From the NCBI GenBank assembly GCA_035765895.1, contig DASTWL010000033.1:1-64000 (forward strand): a stretch of 64,000 nucleotides of DNA, given 5' to 3'. The notes under the pieces were generated by a model that searched no databases, was not told the DNA's origin, and saw only the letters and a list, made by a program, of their open reading frames with translations. This document shows, piece by piece, positions 42,450 to 44,606 of this stretch (positions are counted from its first letter, which is position 1; every line of letters begins with the position of its first letter). Made by a program: the position numbers and the translations under genes. Source of the DNA: Verrucomicrobiia bacterium (GTDB taxonomy: Bacteria; Verrucomicrobiota; Verrucomicrobiia; Limisphaerales; DSYF01).

Positions 42450-43145
42450 ATGCTACTCGCGACGCTCACGTTTCCGGTCCTGGCCGCGGCGCCGGGAACG
42501 GCGCCCGACAGCCAGCTGATGCTCCGCACCCTGCTCGGCAACGGCGGCCCGATGATGTGGTTGCTGCTCGTGCTGAGCGGAGTTGCCATCGCGGTGTTCA
42601 TCGAGCGCGTGCTTTACTGCCACCGTTCCCAGATCAACTCCACCGAGTTTCTCAACGGCGTCCGCACCGTGCTGAAGCGGGACAACGTCGTGGAGGCCCT
42701 GTCCATCTGCGACGCCACCCCCGGTCCGGTGGCCCGGCTGGTGCGCACCGCCATCGTCAATCGTGACAAGGGCAAGGACGGTGTCCGCGAGGCACTGGAG
42801 GACGCGGGCCTCGTCGAAGTGCCGCGGCTGGAGGCGAAACTAAACCTGCTGGCGACGGTGGCCCAGATCGCGCCGCTGCTGGGATTGCTCGGCACCGTGC
42901 TGGGCTTCATCACGGTGTTTTACCAGTTGCAGGACGCCGGGCTGGGCGCACAAATCGGGCAGCTTTCCGGGGGCATCTGGCGCGCCCTCATCAGCGCCGG
43001 CGCCGGCATCGCGGTCGCCATCCCGACGCATGTCGGCTACAACTACCTCGTCAGCCGGGTGAACACAATCGTCCTGGACATGGAACGTTCCGCCACGGAA
43101 ATCGTGAACATTCTGGCGGAGCTGAACAGCAGCAAGACGTCATGA
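42450..43145 (+). CDS. ExbB/TolQ/MotA-type proton channel protein
   Basis: A 231-residue inner-membrane protein with three helices: about 33-53 (PMMWLLLVLSGVAIAVF), 135-157 (IAPLLGLLGTVLGFITVFY) and 178-198 (ALISAGAGIAVAIPTHVGYN). The central GLLGTVLG motif is that of ExbB. In TM3 the channel-lining Thr of E. coli ExbB/TolQ (ALLATAIG) is replaced by Ala, although a Ser sits one position earlier. It overlaps the exbD-like gene by four bases (ATGA). It should energise the TonB-like partner, but see the finding on lost proton-path residues. Confidence 0.88.
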   Translation: MLLATLTFPVLAAAPGTAPDSQLMLRTLLGNGGPMMWLLLVLSGVAIAVFIERVLYCHRSQINSTEFLNGVRTVLKRDNVVEALSICDATPGPVARLVRTAIVNRDKGKDGVREALEDAGLVEVPRLEAKLNLLATVAQIAPLLGLLGTVLGFITVFYQLQDAGLGAQIGQLSGGIWRALISAGAGIAVAIPTHVGYNYLVSRVNTIVLDMERSATEIVNILAELNSSKTS

Positions 43146-43585
43146 AATTTCCACGCAACGCCCGCATCGCCAAGGGCTCGCTGGAAGCCGCACCGTGGGC
43201 GGCCGTCATGTTCCTGCTGGTCACCTTCCTGTTACTGGGCAACCTGCTCTACACCCCGGGCGTCCACATTGAACTGCCCGTGGCCAGCCTGCCGGCGGAC
43301 GACGCCCTGCCCGGCACGGACAAGCCGACGCTCAGCGTGGCCATGGACGCCAGCGGCCGGTTGTTCTACGAGAACCAGCTGATGGAAGAAACCCAACTGC
43401 TGGCGCGGTTGAGCGAAACCGTAAAGGCCGCCCCCGAGAAACCAACGCTGATCGTCCGCGCAGACCGGGCCGTCAGTTACGAAAACTTGATCCGTCTGAC
43501 GCTGCTGGCGCGGCAGGCCGGCATTGAAAACGCGGTCCTGGCGACGCTTCCCCGGCCGTTCGACAAAACGCCGGCCCGCCCGTGA
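43142..43585 (+). CDS. ExbD/TolR-like protein lacking the membrane Asp
   Basis: A 147-residue protein with one N-terminal membrane helix (about 17-37) and a periplasmic ExbD/TolR domain (THETA strands, then TLIVRADRAVSYENLIRLTLLARQAGIENAVLAT in consecutive elements). Aligned with E. coli ExbD, PFIDVM becomes PWAAVM, so the universally required proton-carrying Asp is Ala (bases 43189-43203 read P-W-A-A-V). The flanking residues and the downstream VHIELP motif still align. It overlaps both neighbours by four bases (ATGA, GTGA), so stoichiometric translation is likely. Confidence 0.87.
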   Translation: MKFPRNARIAKGSLEAAPWAAVMFLLVTFLLLGNLLYTPGVHIELPVASLPADDALPGTDKPTLSVAMDASGRLFYENQLMEETQLLARLSETVKAAPEKPTLIVRADRAVSYENLIRLTLLARQAGIENAVLATLPRPFDKTPARP

Positions 43586-44379
43586 ACGCCGTGCTGCCAG
43601 ATTCCTCCGCCTGGACAAGGCGCCAGTGGATTGGGGCCGTTGTGCTCGCCGTGCTTGTGCAGGCGGGATTGATTCTGTGGTTCAGCGAACACACGCCACG
43701 CCCGGTGCATCGGTTGAACGCACGGCCCGTCGTGCGCATGGCGCCACGGGTCAAAAATGAGTGGCTGACGCTCACGGACCCGACGCTGTTCGCGGTGCCG
43801 CACCCGGAAGGATTCTCGGGTCCGGCCTGGCTCACTGTTCCGCCGCATCAATACCGCCCCCCCGGTTCGCTGGACGAACCCTTGTGGCTGGCGCCAACTC
43901 CGGTCGCGTTCGGCGCCGCCTTTCATGAATTCGTGCGGACAAGTCCGCTCGCCCCGTTCCATTTTACCGTCCGCCCGCTGGCCGCTCCAACCGATCTTGG
44001 CAATGTGCCCAACCCACCGCTGCGCACGGGCTCCGAGTGGGAGGTCACGGGCGACCTGGCCCGCCGCGGTCTCGAGTTCATTCCGCCGCTGCCGTCCTGG
44101 ACGAACGCCGAAATCCTGGCGCCGAGCGTCGTGCAGGTATTGATTGACGCCCGCGGCAATCCCATTTCCGCCGTGCTGCTGGACCCCAAGGGCAGCGGCC
44201 TGAAGGCAGCCGACCAACGCGCGGTGGATCTGGCCCGCGCCGCTCATTTTGGCCCGGACCAGGCGGCGTTGACCGAACATCCGAACGATCCGGCGGCCGG
44301 ACTTGGCTCGGGCCGGCTGATTTTTCACTGGAACACCCTGCCCGCGCCGGTCACCAACGACAGCGTCAACCCGCGTTAA
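43582..44379 (+). CDS. TonB-like periplasm-spanning protein
   Basis: A 265-residue protein with one N-terminal membrane helix (about 15-33, WIGAVVLAVLVQAGLILWF) and a C-terminal TonB-like domain (about 180-235; VVQVLIDARGNPISAVLLD followed by DQRAVDLARAAHF). The usual long Pro/Lys-rich spacer is missing; the spacer is Pro/Phe/Trp-containing but not repetitive. The membrane helix has no His; its only polar residue is Gln. The gene starts with GTG inside the exbD stop (GTGA). It is probably the energised arm of the complex. Confidence 0.75.
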   Translation: MNAVLPDSSAWTRRQWIGAVVLAVLVQAGLILWFSEHTPRPVHRLNARPVVRMAPRVKNEWLTLTDPTLFAVPHPEGFSGPAWLTVPPHQYRPPGSLDEPLWLAPTPVAFGAAFHEFVRTSPLAPFHFTVRPLAAPTDLGNVPNPPLRTGSEWEVTGDLARRGLEFIPPLPSWTNAEILAPSVVQVLIDARGNPISAVLLDPKGSGLKAADQRAVDLARAAHFGPDQAALTEHPNDPAAGLGSGRLIFHWNTLPAPVTNDSVNPR

Positions 44380-44381
44380 TC

Positions 44382-44606
44382 ATGCCCATTCATACGCTGA
44401 TTCTGGGATTCGTGGTGATCTCGCTGGGAGCCTTGGGGCTGCTGGTGATTTGGACTGAACTGCGCCGGCGCCGCTTCGAGCCGCACCCCAGCCAGGATCG
44501 CATTTTCCGCTGCCAGAAATGCGGCTCGGTTTACACGGACGACCCCGACGTGGACCGCTCGCGCTGCCCGCAATGCGGCAAGCTGAACGAGGCCATCCAA
44601 TTTTAG
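44382..44606 (+). CDS. Membrane-anchored zinc-ribbon protein
   Basis: A 74-residue protein with an N-terminal helix (about 4-25, LILGFVVISLGALGLLVIW) and a cytosolic zinc ribbon made of two CxxC pairs (CQKCGS and CPQCGK, 19 residues apart). It starts two bases after the TonB-like gene and is thus the fourth gene of the operon. No named family is recognised; it could be a structural or regulatory subunit of the Ton-like complex. The 168-base gap after it holds no gene. Confidence 0.7.
   Translation: MPIHTLILGFVVISLGALGLLVIWTELRRRRFEPHPSQDRIFRCQKCGSVYTDDPDVDRSRCPQCGKLNEAIQF

Follow-up and report, generated by a model that had tools for sequence, protein, structure and literature searches.

A transmembrane Asp is regarded as a defining and indispensable feature of ExbD, TolR, and MotB. 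In the E. coli structure, both ExbD D25 side chains point at the ring formed by ExbB T148 and T181 (PMC7014051), a cryo-EM structure places TonB His20 among the contact residues (PMC12215075), and in MotB an Asn mimics the protonated state (PMC9389320). The PVC group carries vWA and other force-transducer modules of the 5:2 type, whose function is unknown and in which the proton-binding Asp is kept (PMC12204202). No Asp-less ExbD family was found in open-licence PMC text, in which the residue is taken to be conserved and indispensable. We analysed a 64,000-nucleotide stretch (the window; positions 1 to 64,000 of contig DASTWL010000033.1) from a Verrucomicrobiia bacterium of the order Limisphaerales, which encodes a Ton/Tol-type module whose ExbD lacks this residue.

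The module consisted of four genes on the + strand. The exbB-like gene (42519..43145) was assigned by PF01618 (2.1e-29, well above cut-off), by PDB TolQ/ExbB alignments, and by alignments within the order; a longer ORF begins at 42450, and the orthologue alignments start at the ATG at 42519. The exbD-like gene (43142..43585) matched PF02472 at 6.5e-17 (62.2 bits versus a cut-off of 25.4), and the TonB-like gene (43582..44379) was recognised through its orthologues and by structure. Consecutive genes overlapped by 4 bases (43142-43145 and 43582-43585), and a gene encoding a 74-aa zinc-ribbon protein (44382..44606) began two bases past the end of the TonB-like gene. A preliminary description of positions 42450-44379 had named the ExbB-, ExbD-, and TonB-like proteins correctly and had seen the tight overlaps, but its three-gene operon overlooked the fourth gene. 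The adjoining genes scanned encoded a nucleoside transporter, a formyltransferase, a phosphoribosyltransferase, and a dUTPase, besides the zinc ribbon.

The window ExbD has one TM helix (residues 16-36 in the AF2 model) followed by an ExbD periplasmic domain. The model reached a pLDDT of 83.6, and Foldseek superposed it on the ExbD of 8p9r with a TM-score of 0.84 by target and an rmsd of 2.0 over 74 columns. The Asp expected of a proton-driven ExbD or TolR was absent: residue 21 (codon GCC, 43202..43204, + strand), which alignments including HMMER to PDB chains placed at the E. coli ExbD D25 and TolR Asp position, is Ala. To the extent of the order sampled, all of it metagenome-assembled, this was general. 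The 167 loci read gave 138 distinct ExbB+ExbD pairs, one of them unreadable at the Asp column, and none of the 137 readable orthologues of Limisphaerales / Verrucomicrobia subdivision 3 carried D, E, or N there (G 56, A 44, S 15, C 10, V 4, M 3, T 3, I 2). When canonical-type ExbD paralogues of the same order were aligned likewise, 29 of 30 had D and the remaining one had N. The comparison of 0/137 with 29/30 indicates that the absence of Asp from window-type ExbDs is not due to chance. The window genome itself encodes four other ExbDs (two designated C2, one C39, and one C89), each with the Asp, together with two canonical TonB_C matches and one TonB-dependent receptor plug. Since these four Asp-bearing ExbDs are retained, ordinary powered systems coexist with the Asp-less module. 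A second, Asp-bearing ExbD had been proposed as a sign that the present set is specialised; four were found, and the Asp-less set formed a monophyletic, order-wide family. Among the other loci, the ExbD ORFs of six (L156, L157, L196, L201, L234, and L257) spanned 225-267 residues, and in L156 and L157 the ExbD profile matched twice, as if two periplasmic domains followed a single TM helix. At another locus (L107), one of two canonical-type ExbDs arranged in tandem has Asn for Asp (LLNLAF), and the two are a possible natural heterodimer.

A search of the order gave matches in 273 of 293 genomes, a count that includes weak matches, not all of which were read. Among named records, the closest ExbB proteins came from Pedosphaera, Verrucomicrobia subdivision 3, and Limisphaerales metagenome assemblies. 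Three records titled Akkermansia muciniphila (L239, L254, and L255) also carried the Limisphaerales-type operon, and these assemblies are probably mislabelled. In other orders and classes of Verrucomicrobiota the module carried N in many members and D in some, further members having T, S, or G, with Asn the commonest Asp-less state outside the order. Thr or Asn stood at the Asp position in four loci of one family (f68; L161, L165, L168, and L187). We built a maximum-likelihood tree from 85 rows of concatenated ExbB+ExbD, excluding the Asp column. Limisphaerales formed one clade with 100/100 support, and members near the base (such as L141, L127/L129, L270, and L271) carried D. D versus not-D required 12 changes on this tree and 9 on a quick tree with more rows (101), and genus g202 had Asn (L170, L172) and Asp (L184) side by side. 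A single base separates Asp from Asn, so that some of these changes may be reversals. As judged from these trees, Asp is the basal state and the direction is from Asp to non-Asp, and the residue was apparently lost several times across the phylum.

The loss might have been offset by another acid in the ExbD helix, the finding that would speak against the proposed disuse of the usual proton path. No acid lay within the hydrophobic core (columns 16-31) in any of the 169 Asp-less members, and five had one at columns 32-34, at the periplasmic end of the helix. An acid was common just ahead of the helix, at the E. coli N19 position (Glu15 in the window, codon GAA, 43184..43186, + strand; D/E in 134 of 138 members of the order). 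The corresponding N12-V20 stretch of E. coli ExbD is extended and cytoplasmic (PMC7014051). This acid also occurred in Asp-bearing relatives (VDPAPMVD, IDSTPLVD) and was missing from some Asp-less ExbDs (RIGAVPLVN), and we therefore rejected it as a relocation of the Asp. A new acid in the ExbB pore was rejected likewise, none being conserved at the facing positions of TM2 and TM3.

We further compared the residues of ExbB and TonB that accompany the Asp in the known motor. The Thr equivalent to T148, in the TM2 GLLGT motif (42894..42896, + strand; PDB TolQ/ExbB alignment), was present in the window and in 131 of 138 orthologues of the order (95%). At the T181 position in TM3, residue 183 of the window ExbB is Ala (42996..42998, + strand); Thr was found there in 57 of 138 orthologues versus 28 of 30 canonical-type paralogues, and the window Ala is thus no fixed family trait. 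In the TonB-like protein, Gln occupied the His20 position of the N-terminal TM (codon 43660-43662 within 43618..43686, + strand), and the SxxxH motif was absent, with Q/V in its place and Ser16 not kept. Among 67 TonB-like orthologues, 52 had Gln and 13 had His at this position; these counts leave out automated calls on divergent TMs, which misplaced some His. The three individual substitutions reported for the window, of the ExbD Asp, the ExbB TM3 Thr, and the TonB His, were each confirmed. The accompanying statement that every known proton-path residue is missing was overstated, given T148, the Thr at T181 in 57 orthologues, and the His in 13. That all three partners changed together was only weakly true, in that T148 was kept, T181 was relaxed rather than lost, and the His was partly kept. 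An independent-pairs test of co-change between the Asp and T181 was not significant, and we rejected a concerted loss of all three residues. At the A175 position of TM3, a Trp (42978..42980, + strand) marked the module family: it was present in 124 of 138 members of the order, occurred with or without the Asp, and was absent from canonical-type paralogues.

The distribution of constraint along ExbB was the reverse of that in canonical relatives, whose pore helices are better conserved than the cytoplasmic loop. Mean pairwise identity in the order was 0.753 for the cytoplasmic loop, 0.628 for TM2, and 0.569 for TM3, and the loop exceeded the pore in conservation by +0.155 (95% interval 0.048 to 0.255, bootstrapped columns); 18 positions of the loop were conserved in at least 97% of the order. 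The same difference was -0.159 in Asp-bearing class relatives, -0.126 in class relatives with Asn or other residues, and -0.169 in the C89-type paralogue. As a control, eight genomes with both systems gave 0.70 for the loop versus 0.55 for TM3 in the Asp-less-family ExbB, and 0.50 versus 0.66 in the paralogue. In other Asp-losing lineages the shift was weak or absent; we therefore rejected the idea that losing the Asp generally brings it about, and regard it as a property of the order Limisphaerales, not a proven consequence of losing the Asp.

The window TonB-like protein itself had no Pfam match, and 27 of 60 orthologues matched TonB_C at E<=0.01. The family profile found the TonB CTD 9ddz in the PDB (E=4e-4). 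An AF2 model with a pLDDT of 82.9 had TonB CTDs as its top Foldseek matches (9ddz, probability 0.98 but E=0.035), and it resembled these domains less strongly than the ExbD model resembled 8p9r. The putative C-terminal-type domain lies at about 44125..44328 (+ strand). In the periplasmic linker, conserved DPTLFA and GFSGxAWL motifs replaced a plain spacer. The zinc-ribbon protein has one TM, then RRRR, then two CxxC pairs; by the positive-inside rule the ribbon is predicted to be cytoplasmic, and the two CxxC pairs would bind zinc. No Pfam or NCBIfam model scored above cut-off for this protein. Of 198 operons with space for such a gene, 169 had a homologue immediately downstream in the same orientation, 19 had none, and 10 had it elsewhere. 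The gene is phylum-wide and adjoins the same module genes in other classes, and in three loci (L286-L288) it occurred with no module nearby.

On a slender balance of probability, we interpret the locus as a four-gene Ton/Tol-type complex that has lost the Asp throughout the order and persists as an unpowered scaffold or tether across the envelope. An ExbB pentamer would surround an ExbD dimer in a presumed 5:2 assembly, the TonB-like arm would reach the outer envelope, and the membrane-anchored cytoplasmic zinc ribbon would join the complex. With the Asp gone, proton flow would most likely no longer be converted to force, and the working surface would be the cytoplasmic side, formed by the conserved loop of ExbB, possibly joined by the zinc ribbon, and perhaps signalling through that face. 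As the Asp is lost throughout the order and the module is intact, evolution seems to have kept the machine and removed or replaced the engine. The basal Asp, the acid-free helix cores, the relaxed T181, and the greater conservation of the loop than of the pore speak for the unpowered reading. The prevalence of Asn as the Asp-less state elsewhere, by analogy with its mimicry of the protonated state in MotB, would count for it too. Counting against it are the strong conservation of T148, a Thr with no obvious use in an idle pore; the constraint shift, which is strong in this order alone and may not stem from Asp loss; the relaxation at T181, which did not reach significance once relatedness was accounted for; and the possibility that protons are transferred with no carboxylate, mediated by water or via the backbone. 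The preliminary description had likewise envisaged a complex with its structure preserved but the usual proton path out of use. Its structural part agrees with the ExbD and TonB-like folds, and the loss of the Asp beside four Asp-bearing ExbDs fits disuse of the path, but T148 is kept, and it is from sequence that we infer the absence of proton coupling.

Other explanations were weighed against the same observations. The coupling might be reversed, with the TonB-like arm sensing the outer envelope and ExbD and ExbB relaying the signal inwards to the zinc ribbon and the conserved cytoplasmic loop, a sensor and not a motor, working with no proton flow. The greater conservation of the loop than of the pore and the zinc-ribbon gene adjoining the module in 169 operons fit such a sensor. 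The ribbon, however, also accompanies Asp-bearing members and is missing from some, and the scheme has no known signalling partner; we consider it rather unlikely, if less so than the readings that follow. The complex might still be ion-driven through a different site, for example a ring in ExbB TM3 (His/Tyr at the V192 position, column 171) or pore Ser/Cys with water. The V192 position lies on the T181 helix face by its 11-residue spacing, T148 is retained, and column 171 had His in 85 of 169 Asp-less loci versus 0 of 15 Asp-bearing loci. Yet Tyr occupied this column in 37 of 64 representative rows of the order and in most Asp-bearing relatives, and the His changed 7 times on the tree and originated repeatedly. 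No single substitute is thus conserved, and with the facing positions of TM2 and TM3 also devoid of a conserved acid, the common His allows some slight room for a different route, which we judge unlikely.

The Asp-less ExbD might instead pair with an Asp-bearing ExbD encoded elsewhere, one Asp per pore being enough. All 40 relatives searched had at least one ExbD-family match, most had several, the order often has ExbDs in tandem pairs, and the window genome offers four Asp-bearing candidates. Such mixing is made doubtful, to a slightly greater degree than an alternative ion site, by the 4-base overlaps that tie transcription of the Asp-less ExbD to that of its cognate, strongly conserved ExbB, and by the presence of the Asp in the same single-ExbD module of other lineages. 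Slow decay to a non-functional relic, of which loss of a catalytic residue is typical, is already contradicted by conservation and is very improbable: all three frames (exbB-, exbD-, and TonB-like) were intact in 68 of the 68 loci first read, and the operon order was maintained across dozens of families at protein identities of 36-83%.

An order-wide natural loss of the Asp, with the remainder under strong selection, provides a test case for proton-independent roles of such complexes, and one module is available for comparison in ready-made Asp, Asn, and Gly/Ala versions. The vWA and other force-transducer modules of the PVC group are Asp-bearing, whereas the window-type module is Asp-less, and in the part of that report consulted no Asp-less ExbD family is reported (PMC12204202). 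With TolQ-TolR-TolA the relationship is one of score, the window ExbB and ExbD doing slightly best on the TolQ/TolR NCBIfam models, although all scores were far below the cut-offs; the window ExbD differs in lacking the Asp, and what sets the module apart from Tol-Pal is that the scanned neighbours include neither tolB nor pal. The closest match is the Ton motor, ExbB-ExbD-TonB, with which the module shares the Pfam families, the gene set, the ExbD periplasmic fold, a probable TonB C-terminal-type domain, ExbB T148, and the TM3 proline. It differs from this motor in an ExbD that has no Asp, a relaxed T181, and a TonB His that is mostly Gln with no Ser16, and in having an extra zinc-ribbon gene, a Trp at the A175 position, and a conserved cytoplasmic loop.
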